41,519 bases of DNA from Bryobacteraceae bacterium. Lineage in GTDB: Bacteria > Acidobacteriota > Terriglobia > Bryobacterales > Bryobacteraceae. Numbering within the stretch: position 1 is the stretch's first letter; every line of letters begins with the position of its first letter. The notes below the pieces were generated by a model. It made no database searches and was not told the DNA's origin. It was given only the letters and a program-made list of their open reading frames with translations. Of the stretch, positions 30,702-39,464 are shown piece by piece. Location of the stretch: assembly GCA_025062235.1 (NCBI GenBank), contig JANXAE010000009.1:1-41519 (forward strand). Reading direction: 5' to 3'. The position numbers and the translations under genes are program-made.

Positions 30702-31469
30702 TCAACGCGCCCGCGGCTTCAAACGGTAATCGCCCACCGAAGGCAGCCGCACGATGCGGCACATCTGGAACAGGCGCGAGCGGGCGCGGTCGCCGATGCG
30801 CTCGGCGAGGCTTGTGCGATAGCGCAGGCGCGCGCCCCATTAGGGCGAGCGTTAGAGCAGGTCGTCACCAGCTACCTCATCGGGCAGGTTCGTCGTCGCG
30901 ATGAGCGGCTTCTGGTAGTTGCAGCGGTGGGTCACGAACGCAGGGATCGTGTCCACGACCCATTCGGGGCCGCGCTGCGAACCGAGATCGTCGAGCAGCA
31001 GGACTTCGGCCTCCAGGGCCGTGCGGTATGCGTCGCGCTCGCTGGCGCCCGCGGCGGGATCCCAGCTTGCGCGGACGCGCGCCAGCAGGTCCTGGTAGTC
31101 GAAGAAAACGCCTTCGAAACCCCGCGCGATCAGCATTCGCAGGGCGGCCACGGCCAGATGCGTCTTGCCCGTGCCAGGGTCGCCCATCAGCAACAGGCCG
31201 GGTCTGTCCGGCTGCGGGAACTCTCGGACGTACGAGCGAACGGTCAGGACCGCGGCGGCCATTTGCCGGTAGGCGGCCGGATCCTCGGTCGGCAGGCGGA
31301 AGTTGTCCAGCGAGACGTGACGGTATAGCGGCGGGATCCCCGCCCGCTCCTCGATGGTCCGTAGCCGCTCGGCTTGCTGGCAAACACAGGGTTGGGCGGC
31401 GCTGATCCCCTCGCGCTCGACGATCTTCCAGCCCGTGCCGCCGCAGTCAGGGCAAAGCGGCTCGCTCAT
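30702..31469 (-). pseudogene. dnaC: DnaC/DnaI-like helicase loader ATPase interrupted by two in-frame TAA codons
   Basis: AAA+ ATPase of the DnaC/DnaI/IstB group, expected to load the replicative helicase. From ATG 31469 it reads an N-terminal zinc-type motif (LCPDCGGTGW and CVCQ), Walker A GDPGTGKTHLAVA, Walker B EVLLLDDLGS and KPLIATTNLPDEV. The frame then hits TAA at 30854-30852 (codon 206) and TAA at 30842-30840 (codon 210). Beyond these the same frame continues with the normal DnaC-family tail RYRTSLAERIGDRARSRLF and MCRIVRLPSVGDYRLKPRAR to a TGA at 30704-30702. So no frame shift is needed; two nonsense codons four apart break a 255-codon gene. Each TAA is one G-to-T step from GAA. Loss of the arginine-containing tail would remove sensor-region residues. 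A second copy may exist elsewhere, or this may be a sequence error or readthrough. Confidence 0.8.
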
Positions 31470-31601
31470 GGTCCCCATTATCGCGCCGCAGCAGCGGTCG
31501 CTTTGCCTGCCGTCGGGCCGGCGCGGCGCCCTCGGATTTTCCAGTTCGCTCCGGTTCCCTGCTGCCACGGCCGTGCTATGGTGGCCATGAGAGGAGCGCT
31601 C

Positions 31602-32099
31602 GTGAGACCCGGGGGAATCGAGGCTTCGCTGCGCGAGCAAGGCCTGCGGATGACGCGGCAACGCAAGATCTTGCTCGAGCTTCTCGAGCAATCCGGTGCG
31701 CACCTGGACGCGGACCATCTCTACCGGCTGGCGCGGGAACGCGATCCCCGGCTGAACCGGGTCACCGTCTACCGTACGCTGAAGTTGCTCAAGGACAGCG
31801 GACTGGTGGACGAACTCGATCTGATGCACCACAAGGGGGAGGCCCACTATTACGAGACGCGAATGAAGCAGGAACACGCGCACGTGGTCTGCCTCCGCTG
31901 CGGCCGAGTGGAGGAATTCTACGGGGACCCGCTGCGGCGCATGCGGCGGCAGATCGAAAACCACTTGGGCTTCCAGGTGGTCGTGGTGCGCACCGAGGCC
32001 GGCGGCTACTGCTCGCACTGCCGCGCCGTGCGGGCGCGGGAGCTGGACCAAGCCGGGTACGCCGCACCGGCTCGCGGTTCCCGCCGGAGAAAGCAATGA
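31602..32099 (+). CDS. Fur-family metal-dependent transcriptional regulator
   Basis: A 165-residue Fur-superfamily repressor. The winged helix is LREQGLRMTRQRKILLELLE, then HLDADHLYRLARERDPRLNR and the recognition helix VTVYRTLKLLKDSGLVDE. The metal domain holds HHKGEAHYYE and KQEHAHVVCLRCGRVEEF, and the structural zinc pair CLRC and CSHC. Fur, Zur and PerR cannot be told apart with certainty. GTG 31602 is chosen because GAGGAG lies five bases upstream; ATG codons at 31578 and 31587 are in frame but have no ribosome site. The stop overlaps the next gene's start as ATGA (32096-32099), so the two are translationally coupled. It is divergent from the dnaC-like gene, 132 bases apart. Confidence 0.9.
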   Translation: MRPGGIEASLREQGLRMTRQRKILLELLEQSGAHLDADHLYRLARERDPRLNRVTVYRTLKLLKDSGLVDELDLMHHKGEAHYYETRMKQEHAHVVCLRCGRVEEFYGDPLRRMRRQIENHLGFQVVVVRTEAGGYCSHCRAVRARELDQAGYAAPARGSRRRKQ

Positions 32100-33727
32100 A
32101 CGGCGTTGAACCGCCGCCCGCGGTCCTCGTAGTCAGCGACCCGGGAGGTGACCGTTCGGAAGTTCCGCTCGCTCCCTTGCCTTTTCATATCGGCCGGCTG
32201 GCGGAGAACCAGCTCGCGTTGCGCGACGGGCGGATTTCGCGTCGGCATGCGCGCATTGTTTTCGAGGAGGGCGCTTACACCATCGAAGATCTGGGCAGCC
32301 GGCACGGGCTGTTCGTCAACGGCGAGCGCGTCAGCCGGCACCGGTTGCGGCACGGCGACCGAATCGGCTTCGGCTTTCCGGACTCCTACGAGCTTGTCTT
32401 CCGGCTCGCCGGCGGCGCAGGATCCCTGTTGGCGCAGACGGAAGTGCCCGGCAGCCACCTCGCGCGCCTGCGCGCGATGCTCGAGGTGGCGCGCGCACTG
32501 CACGCCTCCCTGTCGACCGAGGAAGTGTTGGCCACAGTCGTCGAGGCGGCGCTGGCGGTTACCGGCTGCTCGCGGGGCTTCTTGTTGCTGTGGGAGGGCG
32601 GGCGATTCCAGGTGCGCGTTGCGCGCACCCGCACCGGGCCCTTGCCTGGCGGCGCGCCCCGGCTCCCTGCACGACAGCTCGAGCGGGCCGCGCTCGAGCG
32701 CAGGGAACTTTTCTGGATTGCGCCGGATGCGGTGGGGGGCGGGCTGGCCATCCCGCTGGTGAAGGTGCGCACGGGCGGTTCCGGTCACACCAGCGCCGTC
32801 TCGGCAGCCACGGACACCATCGGGCTGCTCTACATGGAGGGCGACGGCGCATGCGAGCCGCCTGCCGGCAGCCGCGAGCTGCTGACCACGCTGGCCTTGG
32901 AAGCCTCCACCGTGCTCGAAAACGCGCGCCTCCTCGAAGAGCAGTGGGTGCGCCAGCGCATGGAGCAAGAGCTCAGACTGGCACAGCGCATCCAGGAAAG
33001 CCTCCTGCCCCGACGCTTGCCCTGTGCGCCGTGGCTGCGGGCGGCCGGCGGCGCCATCCCCTCGCGCGAAGTCGGAGGAGATTACTACGAGCTGCGTCGA
33101 GCGGGACCGGACTGCTTCGTACTGGCCATCGCTGACGTTTCCGGCAAGGGCGTGGGCGCCGCGTTGCTGGCGGCCCTGCTCCAGGGCATGTTCCTCGCCG
33201 CACCGCACACTCGCGTCCCCGTCGAAGAGCTGATGGCACGTGCGAACCGTTTCCTGCTGGAACGTACGGGCGGTGAGCAGTACGCGACGGTGATCTACGG
33301 TCAGATCGAAGCCGGCGGCAGGCTGCGCGTCGTGAACGCGGGACACCCGCCTTGGCTGCGGCTGCACGGCGCGCGACTCGAGCGGCATCCTGCCCGTTCG
33401 CTCCCCCTGGGACTGATCGAGGAAGCCTGCTACGTGCCGGAGGAAGTGCAACTCGATGCGGGCGACCTGTTGCTCTTCTACACCGATGGGCTGACCGAGG
33501 CACGCAACCAGTCGGGAGAGCTGTTCGGTCTGAGAAGGCTGGAGGACGTGGTCGCAGGCCGTCGTCCGGAAGGCGCGCAAGAGCTGTACGACGAGGTTCT
33601 GGCGGCCCTCGACAGTTTCACCGGGGGCGTCAGCCAATCCGACGACATCGCCCTCATGGCCCTGGAATTCGGCCCAGAGAGGCAGCCTTCCCGGAAAGCA
33701 CTGGATGGCGGTGAGGGGGACGCGTGA
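32096..33727 (+). CDS. FHA-GAF-PP2C (SpoIIE/RsbU-type) serine phosphatase
   Basis: A 543-residue signalling protein. Residues 30-98 are an FHA domain that binds phosphothreonine (HIGRLAENQLALRDGRISRR, EDLGSRHGLFVNGERVS). Residues about 125-280 are a GAF sensor domain (LEVARALHASLSTEEVLATV, GCSRGFLLLW). Residues about 295-540 are a PP2C-type phosphatase of the SpoIIE/RsbU branch: RIQESLLPRRLP linker, GGDYYE at 327-332 and ADVSGKGVGAALLAALLQGM at 346-365, NAGHPPWLRL, and LLFYTDGLTEARN, all with metal-site aspartates intact. Such proteins act on anti-sigma-factor antagonists or other phosphoproteins. It begins in an ATGA overlap with the Fur-family gene, an unusual pairing that hints at metal-linked partner switching. 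No anti-sigma or antagonist gene is adjacent. Confidence 0.93.
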   Translation: MNGVEPPPAVLVVSDPGGDRSEVPLAPLPFHIGRLAENQLALRDGRISRRHARIVFEEGAYTIEDLGSRHGLFVNGERVSRHRLRHGDRIGFGFPDSYELVFRLAGGAGSLLAQTEVPGSHLARLRAMLEVARALHASLSTEEVLATVVEAALAVTGCSRGFLLLWEGGRFQVRVARTRTGPLPGGAPRLPARQLERAALERRELFWIAPDAVGGGLAIPLVKVRTGGSGHTSAVSAATDTIGLLYMEGDGACEPPAGSRELLTTLALEASTVLENARLLEEQWVRQRMEQELRLAQRIQESLLPRRLPCAPWLRAAGGAIPSREVGGDYYELRRAGPDCFVLAIADVSGKGVGAALLAALLQGMFLAAPHTRVPVEELMARANRFLLERTGGEQYATVIYGQIEAGGRLRVVNAGHPPWLRLHGARLERHPARSLPLGLIEEACYVPEEVQLDAGDLLLFYTDGLTEARNQSGELFGLRRLEDVVAGRRPEGAQELYDEVLAALDSFTGGVSQSDDIALMALEFGPERQPSRKALDGGEGDA

Positions 33728-34498
33728 CCCGAACCCGAGGGCGCCCGACGCAGTGGCGAAAGCAGCGGGCTGCGTTCCCCAGAGCTGACAAAAGCAGTCC
33801 ATTTTGTTCTGCCTTGCCGCGGCACGGCGCCTCGCCCACGCATGAGCCGGTCGTGCCGGCCCCGCCCGTCAACGTAGTGTGTGGCTGCGCCGTCCCGCCG
33901 GCCGCTTTCACCCGTCGCATGGCTGGCTTTCTCGCACTCGTTGCTCGGTAGCAAAGCTTCGGGCCTGCCCATTCCCGCCAAGATCCCGCCGGCAGGTTTG
34001 GGCCCTTTCGGTCTGTCAGCGCTCGGCCACCGTGACGGGCGGCGCTCGGGGAGGCCCGTTGCGCACCGGGGGCCCACTCCGCGACCTGCCGTTCTGCCCA
34101 GGCGGCCTGCAACCGCCGGACGTTGGCGCCCGAGCTCACCCGGGCCCGGACTCCGCACCCGGCCGGGCACCCGGGGGCCATGGCCCGGCTCGCTGCGTCG
34201 GTCCTCGCGCGGACTCCCGACCGGCGTCGAATCCGCCGACAGTGTCACCCCTTCGGGCAACGAGTCCCGCCGGCGCCGGGGCGCTGAGGCGGCTGGAACG
34301 TCAACTTCTTGCCAGCCATCGCCACGTGGCAGGCGGAGGCGATGCGCTTGACATCGGGACCGGCTTCAGGCACGCTAGGTGATTGAACCGCTCTGCTGTT
34401 CCCGGCGGTCTCCCCGGGTTGACTCCGCGCTGTTCGCCGCCAGCGAAGGCCGGTACGTGCCGGGCGCGGCGGAAGCCAGGCAGAAGGTCGAGGCGAAC
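33728..34498. other. About 770 bases with no supportable gene, upstream of yajC
   Basis: No frame on either strand gives a recognisable protein, and no tRNA or known RNA was found. A stretch GTCGAATC near 34227 looks like a tRNA T-loop but its arms do not fit. A perfect -35-like TTGACA lies at 34348-34353, but no good -10 follows at normal spacing. The AT-richer patch near 33785-33812 may mark a regulatory end. It probably holds the promoter of the yajC-secDF unit. Confidence 0.55.
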
Positions 34499-34819
34499 GT
34501 GGTGTTGAGCCTGATCCTGCAACAGCAACAGCCCCCCTCCAGCGCCGTTGGGTTCCTCATTACGGTCCTGCCCATCATCCTGATCTTCTACTTCCTGCTG
34601 TTCCTGCCCATGCAGAGGCAGCGCAAGCGGCAGCAGAAGATGCTGGCCAGCCTGGAACCCGGGCACACGGTGCTGACCAGAGGGGGAATCATCGGGACCA
34701 TCGTGGCGATCAACCGGGACGATGACACGCTGGTGTTGCGTGTGAAGCCGGATAATGTCAAGCTCCAGGTGACGCGCAGCTCGGTGGCGGCGCTGATACC
34801 CGCCGAGAGCAAGAAGTGA
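34499..34819 (+). CDS. yajC: Preprotein translocase subunit YajC
   Basis: Small single-span membrane partner of SecDF-YidC that helps protein export. The 106-residue product has a glutamine-rich lead-in, one hydrophobic segment (FLITVLPIILIFYFLLFLPM), a basic stretch (QRQRKRQQKMLASLEPGHTV) and the conserved VLTRGGIIGTIVAIN. The start is taken as GTG 34499, five bases after GAGG, since the frame's earlier ATG at 34379 would add 40 unrelated residues. It is followed by secD after 16 bases, as in most bacteria. The usual upstream neighbours tgt and queA are missing here. Confidence 0.9.
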   Translation: MVLSLILQQQQPPSSAVGFLITVLPIILIFYFLLFLPMQRQRKRQQKMLASLEPGHTVLTRGGIIGTIVAINRDDDTLVLRVKPDNVKLQVTRSSVAALIPAESKK

Positions 34820-34835: not shown

Positions 34836-36455
34836 ATGAAGAGAAACGTCAGACTGCGGGCGATCGTGATCGCGGCCGTGCTGCTGGCGGCAGTGCTGGG
34901 CCTGAGCGGGTTCCCGCGATCGCTGGATCAACTCAAGGCGAATCTGCGCAGGAACGTGCGGTTGGGGTTGGACCTGCGCGGGGGCAGCCACCTCATCCTG
35001 CAAGTGCGGGTGCACGAGGCGGTGAAGGCGCGGGCGGACATGACCATCGAGAGCCTGCGGCAGGAGCTGCGCCGGGCGGGGATCGAATTCGCGCAGATCG
35101 AGCGCAACGATCCGCAGCGCGTCGAGGAGGCCGATACGATCGCCATTTACGTGCGCGGCGTGCCCGCGGCGCGGGCGGGGGACCTGCGCGCCATCGTCAC
35201 CCAGCGTTTTCCGATGTGGGTGCTGGCGGCGATCGGAGAGAGTGACTACCGGCTGACGATGCGCCCGAGCGAGCTGCTGGCGCTCAAGCGCGAAACCGTG
35301 GAGCGCACGATCCGGACGCTCGAGCGGCGTATCAACGCGCTGGGACTGACCGAACCTGTCATCCAGCAGCACGGCGCGGCCGAGAGCGAGTACGAGATCC
35401 TGGTTCAGTTACCGGGCGTGGACGATCCTGCTCGTGTCAAGCAGATCATGGGGACCACGGCCGTGCTCGAGATCAGCGAAGTCAAGGACGGTCCTTTCTC
35501 CTCGCGCGAGCAGGCGCTGGCCAAGTATGGCGGCGTTCTGCCTTTGAACACGAAACTGGTCCCGGAAATGCGGCGCCCGGGCGAAACCGGCGAGAGTTGG
35601 TGGCTGGTCAGCCGGGTTCCGGTGATCACTGGCGAGGACTTGCGAATGGCGCGGCCAAGCCGAGATGAGTTCGGCAAGTGGGAGACGGACTTCACGCTCG
35701 GCCCGGACGGGGCCCGCCGCTTTGCCCAACACACCGAGCGCAATATCGGCAACCGGCTGGCGATCATCCTCGACAACCAGGTGCGCAGCGCCCCGGTGAT
35801 CCAGAGCCGGATCGAGGATCAAGGCCGCATCACGGGAGCCGCCAACGAGCAGGATGCCGCGGATCTTGCCTTGGTCTTGCAGTCAGGCTCCCTGCCGGCG
35901 GGGATTGATTATCTGGAGGAGCGCACCATCGGACCTTCGCTGGGTTCGGATTCCATCCGGCAGGGAGTTTCGGCGGGCGTGCTCGGGCTGATCCTGGTGG
36001 TGACCATCATGCTGGTCTATTACCGCCTGAGCGGCGTGAATGCGGTCGTGGCGCTTCTGATGAACGGACTGTTGACGCTGGCCGCGCTGAGCTACTTCGA
36101 GGCGGTCTGGACCTTGCCGGGCATCGCCGGATTCGTGCTCAGCCTGGGCATGGCGGTGGATTCCAACATTCTCATCTTCGAACGGATCCGCGAGGAGCTT
36201 CGGGCGGGAAAGGGCGTGATCGCGGCCGTGGAGGCCGGCTTCGACCGCGCCTTCATTACGATCATTGATACGCACGTGGTAACCGTGGTTTCCTGCGCCT
36301 TCCTTTTCATGTTCGGGACCGGGCCCGTCAAAGGGTTCGCCGTGACGTTGGTCGTAGGGCTGGTTGCGAACGTCTTCACCGCAGTGTTCGTCTCGCGCAC
36401 GATCTTCAACTGGATCCTCTTCCGCAAGCGGGAGGTCGTCTCGCTGAGCATATGA
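34836..36455 (+). CDS. secD: Protein translocase subunit SecD
   Basis: Six-span membrane protein that uses the proton gradient to pull exported proteins through SecYEG. The 539-residue product has an N-terminal helix (VIAAVLLAAVLGLSGF), the family motif RLGLDLRGGSHLILQV, the large periplasmic P1 domain (up to about 350), SGSLPAGIDYLEERTIGPSL just before helix 2, and the C-terminal helix bundle with the D-box LGMAVDSNILIFERIREELR. The start ATG 34836 lies 16 bases after yajC. Length is normal. It is followed by secF after 162 bases, a larger gap than usual, with a candidate internal promoter. Confidence 0.97.
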   Translation: MKRNVRLRAIVIAAVLLAAVLGLSGFPRSLDQLKANLRRNVRLGLDLRGGSHLILQVRVHEAVKARADMTIESLRQELRRAGIEFAQIERNDPQRVEEADTIAIYVRGVPAARAGDLRAIVTQRFPMWVLAAIGESDYRLTMRPSELLALKRETVERTIRTLERRINALGLTEPVIQQHGAAESEYEILVQLPGVDDPARVKQIMGTTAVLEISEVKDGPFSSREQALAKYGGVLPLNTKLVPEMRRPGETGESWWLVSRVPVITGEDLRMARPSRDEFGKWETDFTLGPDGARRFAQHTERNIGNRLAIILDNQVRSAPVIQSRIEDQGRITGAANEQDAADLALVLQSGSLPAGIDYLEERTIGPSLGSDSIRQGVSAGVLGLILVVTIMLVYYRLSGVNAVVALLMNGLLTLAALSYFEAVWTLPGIAGFVLSLGMAVDSNILIFERIREELRAGKGVIAAVEAGFDRAFITIIDTHVVTVVSCAFLFMFGTGPVKGFAVTLVVGLVANVFTAVFVSRTIFNWILFRKREVVSLSI

Positions 36456-36617: not shown

Positions 36618-37844
36618 ATGGAGCTATTCCGCGAACCCAAGATCAACTGGATCCGCCTGATGCCGGCGGGCGTGTTCTTGTCGCTCGTGCTGATCGCGGC
36701 GACCCTGCTGAGCCTGGCCCTGAAAGGGGGGCCGAAGTGGGGCATTGACTTCCGCGGCGGCACGCTGGTCTACGTCAAGTTCCGCGAGCAGCCGCCGCTC
36801 GAGCAGATCCGGAGAGCCTTGCTCGGGCGGGTCCCGGGCGAGGTGACTGTACAGGAGATGACCGGCACCCGGGAGGTGATCATCGGCACGGAGATGCGCA
36901 GCGAACAGGAGCTGGACTTGGCGCGGCGCATGATCACCGAAACGCTGGCCGAGCGGTTCGCACCCGAGAAGGGCAAGCTGGACCTGAACAACGCGGGACG
37001 GGAAACGCTGGCCGAGAGGCTGCGCGAGCCGTTGCAGCGCGCGGGCATCAGCCTGAGCGAGGGACAATTGCAGGAGCTGGCGGACCGGATCGTGGAGTTC
37101 CGCGACCGGGAGCGTTCCGGCCTGCTTGCGACCTTGGACGAGCTGGCCGCGGTGCCGGGCGTGACTCCGGCGGTTTTGGGCGTGCTCAAGCAGGAGGCCA
37201 CGTTGGCGCCCTTCACGATCCGCCAGGTGGAGATCGTTGGCCCCAAGGTAGGGGCGGATCTCAGGGAAAAAGCCCTCATGGCGACCCTCTACGCATTGGC
37301 CGGCATGCTCGTCTACATCGCTTTCCGGTTCGAGTTCGTGGCTGGCGTGGGTGCCGTGGTGGCGAGCTTTCACGACGCGCTGATCACGATCGGTGTTTTC
37401 TCCTGGCTGGACCGCGAAATCTCGCTGACGGTGATCGCCGCGATCCTGACCCTGATCGGCTACTCGATCAACGACACGATCGTGGTTTTCGACCGGGTGC
37501 GGGAGAACCTGAAGCTGCGATTCAAGCAGGCGCTGCCCGAGGTGGTGAACCTCAGCATCAATCAGACGCTGACCCGGACGGTGATGACCTCGGGGACGAC
37601 GTTGGTGGCAGCGCTGGCGCTTTACCTGTTGGGTGGGCCGGTGCTGAACAACATGGCCCTTGCCCTGCTGGTTGGAGTCATCGTCGGCACCTATTCCTCG
37701 GTTTTCATCGCCAGTGCCATCGTGGTGGGCTGGCACAACCTTTCCGAGCGCCGCAAGAGACGGGTGGGATCCCGTGAGGCGGCGCCGGTGTCCAAACAGC
37801 AAGAGGCCGCCCGGAAGGCGAGCCGGGTGGCGAAGCAGGTTTGA
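36618..37844 (+). CDS. secF: Protein translocase subunit SecF with a GspK/helix-hairpin-helix-like insertion
   Basis: Partner of SecD in proton-driven protein export. The 408-residue product has an N-terminal helix, the motif KWGIDFRGGTLVYVKF, and the five-helix C-terminal bundle with GYSINDTIVVFDRVRENL and SINQTLTRTVMTSGTTLVAA. It starts at ATG 36618. Unlike standard SecF (about 300 residues), it has an insert of about 80 residues (118-197) in the first periplasmic domain. The insert has the pattern LDLNNAGRETLAERL, LQELADRIVEFRDRERSG and LDELAAVPGVTPAVLGVLKQ, which resembles the second helix-hairpin-helix (SAM-like) domain of the type II secretion minor pseudopilin GspK. The insert keeps frame and composition with the host gene. 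TonB follows 71 bases later. Confidence 0.93.
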   Translation: MELFREPKINWIRLMPAGVFLSLVLIAATLLSLALKGGPKWGIDFRGGTLVYVKFREQPPLEQIRRALLGRVPGEVTVQEMTGTREVIIGTEMRSEQELDLARRMITETLAERFAPEKGKLDLNNAGRETLAERLREPLQRAGISLSEGQLQELADRIVEFRDRERSGLLATLDELAAVPGVTPAVLGVLKQEATLAPFTIRQVEIVGPKVGADLREKALMATLYALAGMLVYIAFRFEFVAGVGAVVASFHDALITIGVFSWLDREISLTVIAAILTLIGYSINDTIVVFDRVRENLKLRFKQALPEVVNLSINQTLTRTVMTSGTTLVAALALYLLGGPVLNNMALALLVGVIVGTYSSVFIASAIVVGWHNLSERRKRRVGSREAAPVSKQQEAARKASRVAKQV

Positions 37845-37915
37845 AAGTGACGGGCGCAGAGGGCTAGCCTGGTGCACGGGCAGGCCGGCGCCCGGGGTTG
37901 GGAAAGGCAACGGAT

Positions 37916-38680
37916 ATGTTTGAACAGAGCTTGCTGGATACGGCGGTCAAGACCCGCAGGCCGTGGACCGTGGTGGTTTCCTTCATCGGCCAGTCGCTAC
38001 TGGTGATGATCCTTATCCTGATCCCCCTGATTTACACGGATACGATCCCGCGGGGGACCCTGACGAGTTTTCTGGTGGCGCCTCCGCCGCCTCCGCCGCC
38101 GCCTCCGCCACCCGCAGCGGCGCCCGTGAAGGTGGTCAAAGTGATTCCGCGGCAGTTCGACGCGGGACGCTTGATGGCGCCCCGGCAGATTCCCAAGGAA
38201 ATCGCCATGATCAAGGAGGACGAGCTGCCGCCGCCTTCGGCCGGCGCGGTGGGAGTCGTGGGAGGTGTTCCGGGCGGCGTGCCTGGCGGCTCTCCGGGCG
38301 GCGTGATCGGCGGCATCATTTCGGCGGCTCCGGTGGCGGCTCCCCCGCCGCCTCCTCCCAAGGTCGAGGTGCAGAAGCCCAAGGAGATCCAGCGGATCCG
38401 CGTGGGCGGGAACGTGCAGCAAGCCAAGCTGATCTACCAGCCCAAACCGGTGTACCCGCCCCTGGCCAAGCAAGCGCGCATCCAGGGCGTGGTGCGCTTG
38501 ACGGCGGTCATCGGCGTGGACGGCACGATCCAGAACTTGCAGGTGATCTCCGGACACCCGCTGTTGATCCCCGCGGCTCTGGAGGCGGTGAAGCAATGGC
38601 GTTACCAACCCACGCTGCTCAATGGGGAGCCGGTGGAAGTGATCACGCAGATTGACGTGAACTTCACACTGAGTCAATAG
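37916..38680 (+). CDS. tonB: TonB-family energy transducer
   Basis: Links the ExbB-ExbD motor to outer-membrane receptors. The 254-residue product starts [20 protein letters not shown], has one membrane helix ([18 protein letters not shown]), an 11-proline run (residues about 50-60), a glycine-rich [18 protein letters not shown] stretch and a second proline run, then the C-terminal TonB domain from about residue 165: [60 protein letters not shown] and [11 protein letters not shown]. The YP motif and beta strands are standard. The charged, longer N-terminal cytoplasmic segment (RRPW) is the form seen in Acidobacteria. ATG 37916 is chosen with GGAAAGGCAACGG upstream. First gene of a five-gene cluster with exbB, two exbD and a TPR protein. 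Confidence 0.93.
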
Positions 38681-38735
38681 GAAAGGGTTTCCATACGTCG
38701 CAAGACGGAATTTCAACTCGCAGGAGAAGACAGAG

Positions 38736-39464
38736 ATGCTTTTGCAATTGCAAGTCTGGTCGTTTCTGCTGCTGCAAGAGGCGGCCGTAGGTTGGGACAT
38801 TCGCTCGCTGTGGAACCAGATGGGCCTGGTGGCCAAGATCGTGGTGATCATCCTGTTCTGCATGTCCGCCTGGTCCATCGGCGTGATGATTGACCGCGTG
38901 CTGGCGTTCAACGCCGCGCGGAAGCAGTCGCGGCTGTTTGCGCCGGCGGTGGCGGGTGCGCTGCGCGAGGGCAAGCTGGACGAGGCGATCAAGATTGCAG
39001 ATCGCTACAAGAAGAGCCATCTGGCGAAAGTGGTGGTGGCGGGTCTGCAAGAGTTTCGAGCACACCAGATGAGCTCGGAGCTGCCCGGCGAGGAGATCGA
39101 AGCCTCTCGGCGCGCCTTGGAGCGGGCTGAGGCCATCGTCCACGCCGAACTCAAGCGGGGCGTGCCTACGCTGGCTACGATCGGTGCCACGGCGCCGTTC
39201 GTAGGCTTGTTCGGGACGGTGGTGGGCATCATCAACGCCTTCCACGGCATTTCGACCGAAAAGTCCACCGGCTTGGGCGCGGTGGCGGGCGGCATTTCCG
39301 AGGCCCTGGTGGCCACGGCCATCGGCTTGTTCGTGGCTGTCCCGGCCTTCTGGGCGTTCAACGCCTTCACCAGCCGCATCGAGGGCTTCGACGTCGAGAT
39401 GAGCAACTCGAGCTCCGAGTTGATTGACTACTTCTTGAAGCGCTCGCAGCGCGTCGGCAAGTAA
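38736..39464 (+). CDS. exbB: ExbB/TolQ/MotA-family proton channel protein
   Basis: Inner-membrane motor subunit that with ExbD converts the proton gradient into TonB movement. The 242-residue product has three hydrophobic segments: [20 protein letters not shown] (helix 1), [20 protein letters not shown] (helix 2) and [20 protein letters not shown] (helix 3). The polar [19 protein letters not shown] motif is the family signature. ATG 38736 follows AGGAGAAGACAGAG. It comes 55 bases after tonB and 93 bases before exbD; a strong hairpin lies in the latter gap. Confidence 0.95.

Follow-up and report, generated by a model that had tools for sequence, protein, structure and literature searches.

SecF of most sampled Acidobacteriota carries a predicted helix-hairpin-helix domain in its periplasmic P4 domain

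Few components of bacterial protein export are as conserved as SecDF; the handover of substrates and the contacts made in the periplasm are open questions. The locus described here raises the question of what an additional domain does inside SecF. We analyzed a stretch of 41,519 nucleotides from a Bryobacteraceae bacterium (contig JANXAE010000009.1), hereafter the window, in which yajC, secD, and secF are consecutive and are followed by tonB-like and exbB-like genes (Table 1). The initial annotation had proposed that SecF carries, in its first periplasmic domain, an insert resembling a domain of the type II secretion minor pseudopilin GspK, which would suggest a new periplasmic contact, perhaps with substrates or another export machine.

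Table 1. Features of the secDF locus and of the SecF insert, in window positions
Feature	Position	Strand	Basis
yajC	34379..34819	+	Pfam YajC E 5e-23
secD, 539 aa	34836..36455	+	Pfam SecD_1st aa 155-217, SecDF_P1_head aa 252-355, SecD_SecF_C from aa 359
SecD P1 head, aa 252-355	35589..35900	+	Pfam (SecD match 2.9e-31) and flank alignments
secF, 408 aa, ATG at 36618	36618..37844	+	NCBIfam transloc_SecF; model closest to SecDF structures
P4 helix alpha-2, aa 96-114, N-terminal flank of insert	36903..36959	+	AlphaFold2 model
HhH insert, 82 residues, aa 116-197	36963..37208	+	Helices 128-141, 148-165, 173-178, 184-193
Helix-hairpin-helix core of insert, aa 173-193	37134..37196	+	Pfam HHH/HHH_3 stretches and model helices
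P4 strand beta-4, aa 199-207, C-terminal flank	37212..37238	+	AlphaFold2 model; Pfam SecD_SecF_C starts at aa 198
tonB-like gene, downstream of secF	37898..38680	+	Pfam TonB_C 4.7e-21
exbB-like gene, downstream of secF	38736..39464	+	Pfam MotA_ExbB 3.4e-33

The protein scored 281.4 bits against TIGR00966 (NCBIfam transloc_SecF; curated cut-off 160), 24.1 against Sec_GG (cut-off 20.3), and 224.6 against SecD_SecF_C (cut-off 20.5), and its gene is co-localized with yajC and secD, as expected of SecF. The AlphaFold2 model of full SecF, made from a 43-row alignment, had a mean pLDDT of 93.0, and ten-residue blocks over the insert averaged 93-98. Solved SecDF structures matched this model best: 5yhf with Z 25.8, and 3aqp_A with Z 24.0 over 284 aligned residues (model residues 2-375).

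The segment that had been singled out is real; the quoted motifs lie in the SecF frame, and positions 36969-37211 correspond to aa 118-198. It was also correctly placed inside a periplasmic domain of SecF, but this is not a "first" or P1 domain: the insert sits in the single large periplasmic domain of SecF, which is P4 in SecDF numbering. We set the edges at about aa 116-197 because in the SecF of genome G058 the parts equivalent to query residues 2-115 and 198-393 are directly adjacent, and because the stretch equivalent to window residues 96-215 measures 32-46 residues, not 120, in 51 of the 60 loci without the HhH domain in a survey of 80. The anatomy of the insert is well supported.

The position of the insert recalls SecD. 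In the SecF model it follows alpha-2 and precedes beta-4 of P4, a ferredoxin-like domain. According to Pfam, the SecD of the same operon has its P1 head (252-355) right before SecD_SecF_C at 359, and in SecF the SecD_SecF_C domain begins at 198, right after the insert. Profile alignment paired SecF 60-94 with SecD 158-197 and SecF 189-239 with SecD 347-397 (probability 90.3 each), and these SecD stretches flank the P1 head on both sides. With phmmer, SecF 170-365 aligned with Thermus thermophilus SecD 226-418 (41.7 bits), SecF 189-367 with residues 243-419 of 5xan, and SecF 37-109 with T. thermophilus SecD 31-110, the last at 0.0 bits only. P1-base and P4 are both reported to be ferredoxin-like and to form an apparently continuous sheet (PMC5141469). 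Given this Pfam order, the profile and phmmer alignments, and the ferredoxin-like nature of P1-base and P4, we assign the insert to the place that the head holds in the topology of SecD; its fold differs from that of the head. Sequence, model, and alignments of the flanks all support the shared position. With E values up to 10, the P1 head family itself (PF22599) appeared in neither the SecF nor the insert listing, in a search whose HMMER filters drop most weak matches.

The search for the domain type of the insert gave matches to helix-hairpin-helix (HhH) families. As a single sequence, the insert alone matched HHH_3 and HHH (both E 6e-4), T2SSK_1st (0.0037), and NCBIfam GspK (2.4e-4), all under the curated cut-offs. 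Scores set against these cut-offs were 20.9 against 27 and 20.4 against 24 for HHH and HHH_3, 19.0 against 26.2 for GspK PF21687, and 20.8 against 130 for GspK NF037980, a cut-off made for whole GspK. No GspK, ComEA, or HHH model reached its curated cut-off on the insert. Over 36 homologous inserts, Pfam listed HHH_3 in 15, HHH in seven, and T2SSK_1st in seven (E up to 0.1). When 79 homologous inserts were compared with 790 shuffles, 71 lay above the 1% shuffle point with the ComEA-like profile, 64 with GspK, and 63 with Tex HhH. The likeness to GspK and HhH profiles is above chance and stays under the curated cut-offs. With hhalign, the insert profile reached 98.0% against ComEA-type, 92.6% against same-lineage GspK, and 52% against Tex HhH. 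The controls gave 0.1% for the SecF N-terminal part and 54% for the SecF core; the latter control is compromised by residues that it shares with the edge of the insert.

The predicted fold agrees with these profiles. Folded alone, the insert had a pLDDT of 83.7, and its closest fold was ComEA 8dss_B (Z 9.5, 68 residues, 2.5 A), followed by Tex HhH 3bzc (Z 8.8). GspK 3ci0_K (Z 7.9, 80 residues, 4.1 A) and XcpX 6utu_C (Z 7.1) were both behind ComEA, at Z values that allow for a common arrangement; the ComEA-related 2duy had Z 7.7 with an rmsd of 1.9 over 62. Other families began at Z 6.9 (RlmN) and, with RlmN left aside, at 4.7. Foldseek with the insert alone returned nothing at E 0.001 or better (best, ComEA at E 0.013), a sequence search of solved structures with the insert alone gave weak matches only (best, adenine DNA glycosylase at E 0.14), and a profile search of the genome itself found no close paralogue of the insert (second match, E 0.2).

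The insert is predicted with high confidence to adopt an HhH fold of ComEA/GspK type. For its label, ComEA and GspK are at least two equal choices. Hence, the HhH assignment of the initial annotation stands, with GspK among the top folds, and its restriction to GspK does not, as ComEA does at least as well. An origin from GspK only was rejected as unproven: ComEA-like, GspK, and Tex HhH profiles all recognize the inserts above shuffles. It was dropped because ComEA leads in both hhalign and VIA-align and because the insert profile passed the HMMER inclusion threshold in only two of the 15 GspK proteins of the lineage.

The insert is not confined to this genome. Two further genomes of the genus carry it, with SecF identities of 91 and 87%, and so does every one of the 59 SecF from the two initial searches, a sample made up of the best-scoring loci. 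A named survey covered 80 loci. Among the 30 labelled Acidobacteriota or Aminicenantes, 19 had the insert and 11 did not, two of the latter with a low-complexity stretch. The other 50 comprised 42 of ordinary length, in keeping with the earlier statement that ordinary SecF has no such segment, seven otherwise expanded, and one with an HhH insert (Coatesbacteria L086); the HhH insert was not found in SecF of the 49 surveyed loci outside Acidobacteriota and Coatesbacteria. At the genome level, the insert profile matched 212 of 297 Acidobacteriota genomes, with no match in 85; the insert is not a part of all SecF. The matches listed gave 149 places besides the window's own, of which 125 were comparable with a SecF place and 24 were not, and all 125 fell inside SecF. 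In the Coatesbacteria phylum (L086), four of four genomes matched, with the insert within SecF in each. Samples of three other phyla gave matches in 17 of 188 genomes (phylum of L136; E up to 0.001), three of 299 (phylum of the Pseudomonas locus L144; E up to 1e-5), and none of 198 (phylum of the Syntrophobacterales locus L102; E up to 1e-5). A full-length insert was not found in these three samples; the matches listed covered part of the model, mostly its second half, as in ComEA-like proteins. The insert-bearing form is a domain variant of SecF at the level of a clade, present in most sampled Acidobacteriota.

The insert is under purifying selection. In three within-genus pairs, dN/dS was 0.105-0.129 for the insert, 0.035-0.091 for the core, and 0.33-0.55 for the C-terminal tail, and in each of these pairs the constraint on the insert was weaker than that on the core. 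In a between-genus pair (L004), the insert (0.267) was close to the core (0.266), and the tail had 0.88. These ratios are rough because dS is high, near saturation. G168 was invariant in the 79 inserts, and L135, D122, N124, L176, and R162 were near-invariant. A D/E-P pair (window 37026-37031, SecF aa 137-138) is also conserved, with P138 in 89% of the 79. The pair is not known as part of the usual HhH pattern, and it may mark a surface specific to SecF.

The history of the insert was followed on a tree of the SecF core (84 rows, insert columns excluded) whose root was not inferred, whose deep branches are weak, and whose bootstrap is unsettled. Presence and absence needed four changes on this tree; the shuffled mean was about 28-30. 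The insert-less Acidobacteriaceae L094, L096, and L100 are nested among carriers with starred support, for which reason a loss is the simplest reading, and the insert was apparently lost inside this family. L103 and the Pyrinomonadaceae/Blastocatellia pair L127 and L145 were also placed among carriers, and the insert-less acidobacterial group L099, L104, L108, L133, and L154 lies outside them. The four rows of the Coatesbacteria phylum form a clade of their own (100/100), apart from Acidobacteriota. Since their SecF stands apart, transfer or a separate gain in Coatesbacteria is possible.

The genes next to secF were also compared. A TonB-like gene lies 3' of secF in the insert-bearing loci L077, L079, L083, and L098, and also in the insert-less L100; secF together with tonB/exbB-like genes (window 37898-39464) is a recurring pairing of two proton-driven envelope machines. 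In Coatesbacteria L086, a RelA/SpoT-like gene takes the place after secF. A dependence of the insert on tonB-exbB neighbors was rejected on these two grounds, the TonB-like gene beside the insert-less secF of L100 and the RelA/SpoT-like gene of L086. Upstream of yajC (window 31374-33727), there is a FUR-family regulator and then a gene whose product combines FHA and SpoIIE phosphatase domains.

What could such a domain do? In RND transporters such as AcrB, docking domains are likewise inserted into the porter modules. The best explanation, to which we give nearly even credence, is that the insert is an independently folding HhH "P4 head" on SecF, serving for protein docking in the periplasmic ring. 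The HhH domain grows from the alpha-2/beta-4 loop of P4, as the P1 head does in SecD, and would most likely serve protein docking among the SecD, SecF, and YidC periplasmic domains that encircle the SecY exit. We infer the added protein contact from the position and conservation of the domain. The domain might contact SecD at its P1 head or YidC at P1, reach BAM or a periplasmic chaperone, or touch the emerging chain itself. Proton-driven movement of SecDF might be relayed through this second contact, which probably lies outside the inner membrane and is made from a position like that of the SecD head. The new periplasmic contact suggested in the initial annotation is plausible.

Several reports describe the surroundings of such a head. 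The SecD P1 head is reported to bind substrate and to move with proton flow, and PpiD adjoins it and crosslinks (PMC7793623). The periplasmic domains of SecD, SecF, and YidC are described as a ring at the SecY exit (PMC5141469), and those of SecDF and YidC as contacting BAM, SecF less so (PMC7695460). The P4 head would be a clade-wide and selectively maintained yet dispensable add-on, outside the core motor. That the Acidobacteriaceae subclade L094, L096, and L100 dispenses with it counts against this reading, as do the 85 phylum genomes without a profile match and the weaker constraint on the insert than on the core within the genus.

The chief alternative, which we regard as a substantial possibility, is that the insert is structural and passive. 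It holds that the HhH domain only stabilizes P4 or fills space, having been gained ancestrally and kept since it is well folded, with no partner. The apparent loss in Acidobacteriaceae, the low-complexity replacement in Pyrinomonadaceae/Blastocatellia (L127, L145), and a within-genus conservation below that of the SecF core agree with it, and the conserved residues may serve the fold alone. However, the domain has been kept over much of the phylum with an invariant glycine, near-invariant residues, and low dN/dS.

A coupling to type II secretion, in which the domain, by mimicry of GspK, would let the pseudopilus tip or its substrates dock at the Sec exit, is improbable. It draws on the Z of 7.9 over 80 residues of GspK 3ci0_K, the T2SSK_1st and NCBIfam GspK matches under cut-off, the hhalign value of 92.6, and a G-x-T-P hairpin common to the insert and same-lineage GspK. 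Against this, ComEA matches equally well or better, the insert profile reaches inclusion in few lineage GspK (2/15), and the top open reading frame for this profile among the GspK-search loci is ComEA-like (L075). Just 16 of 31 relatives gave a match to PF21687, and in one of these (G037, L075) the matching protein was that ComEA-like one rather than a GspK, whereas SecF had a match in 59 of 61, mostly spanning the insert. A tie to the type II system is not supported by the genomes: insert carriers within the window's family include some in which a GspK domain was detected and others in which none was (for example G002 and G010), and the neighbors of secF are yajC, secD, tonB, and exbB, not type II genes.

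Nucleic-acid binding of the ComEA kind, by which the Sec site would be linked to extracellular DNA or to the uptake of DNA, is very improbable. DNA-binding HhH domains typically have a GxG hairpin, and those of the ComEA type a basic character. ComEA is indeed the top single fold match and HHH_3 the commonest Pfam match (15/36). The third hairpin position of the 79 inserts, however, is T in 34, P in 13, S in 10, D in nine, N in five, and K in four, which leaves G in at most four, so that the GxG hairpin is replaced. The net charge of the inserts averages -2.8 (range -15 to 4), and 10 ComEA-like stretches of the lineage have -3 to 9, mostly positive. The DNA-binding reading was rejected on charge and hairpin. 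An artefact, whether from faulty assembly, a wrong frame, or an HMM match by chance, to which single-sequence scores under the cut-offs might point, has a negligible probability, as it is refuted by the phylum-wide conservation of the insert, found in two same-genus genomes and many other assemblies with a confident fold.

A wider reading may also be considered. SecDF would be two-headed in Acidobacteriota and Coatesbacteria, and the alpha-2/beta-4 loop of P4 would be a general socket for phylum-specific heads; we hold this to be possible but less likely than not. If it is true, different heads in the SecF socket would tune the export motor to lineage-specific periplasmic partners. In seven loci of other lineages with unrelated expansions, the same two positions enclose 61-161 residues; of seven non-HhH stretches scanned with Pfam, the best E was 0.062. 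Expansions of the SecF P4 loop lie at L097:1845-2213, L121:3926-4300, L124:2545-3027, L136:3874-4275, L149:2292-2693, and L119:3838-4062, in Latescibacterota, Poribacteria, Myxococcota-like Deltaproteobacteria, and one further bacterium. At the insert site of the Pyrinomonadaceae/Blastocatellia SecF, the low-complexity stretch is acidic (L127:3901-4206, L145:1934-2140).

Our literature search, which covered mainly titles and the openings of abstracts and left subscription papers mostly outside, found no description of such a SecF insert. A folded and selected SecF domain at the position of the SecD head, absent in a nested subclade, is a natural plus/minus pair, and this pair allows a test of what the SecF head adds.

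Four known systems can be compared with the insert. The SecDF structures of T. thermophilus (3AQP) and 5XAN/5XAP, which we take to be D. radiodurans SecDF, have in common with the SecF model the whole SecF core, the RND-type motor helices, and the ferredoxin-like P4 (VIA-align Z 22-26, 284-294 residues aligned), whereas about 90 model residues have no counterpart in solved SecDF, matching the insert in number. The first HhH/SAM-like domain of GspK (PF21687) shares the D/N-x-N-x-A start, the helix order, and the G-x-T-P hairpin; calcium binding is reported for GspK/XcpX (PMC6211770). Unlike this minor pseudopilin, SecF is not a pilin, its insert stays below the curated cut-offs, and no type II secretion genes adjoin it. 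The HhH domain of ComEA (PF12836, 8dss, 2duy) is the best fold and the best profile-profile match, but the first half of the insert is longer (gapped in the ComEA alignment), and the insert is acidic on average and does without the GxG hairpin. The SecD P1 head (PF22599) occupies the same topological place in a homologous ferredoxin-like periplasmic domain, whereas the HhH insert of SecF is predicted to be all-helical.
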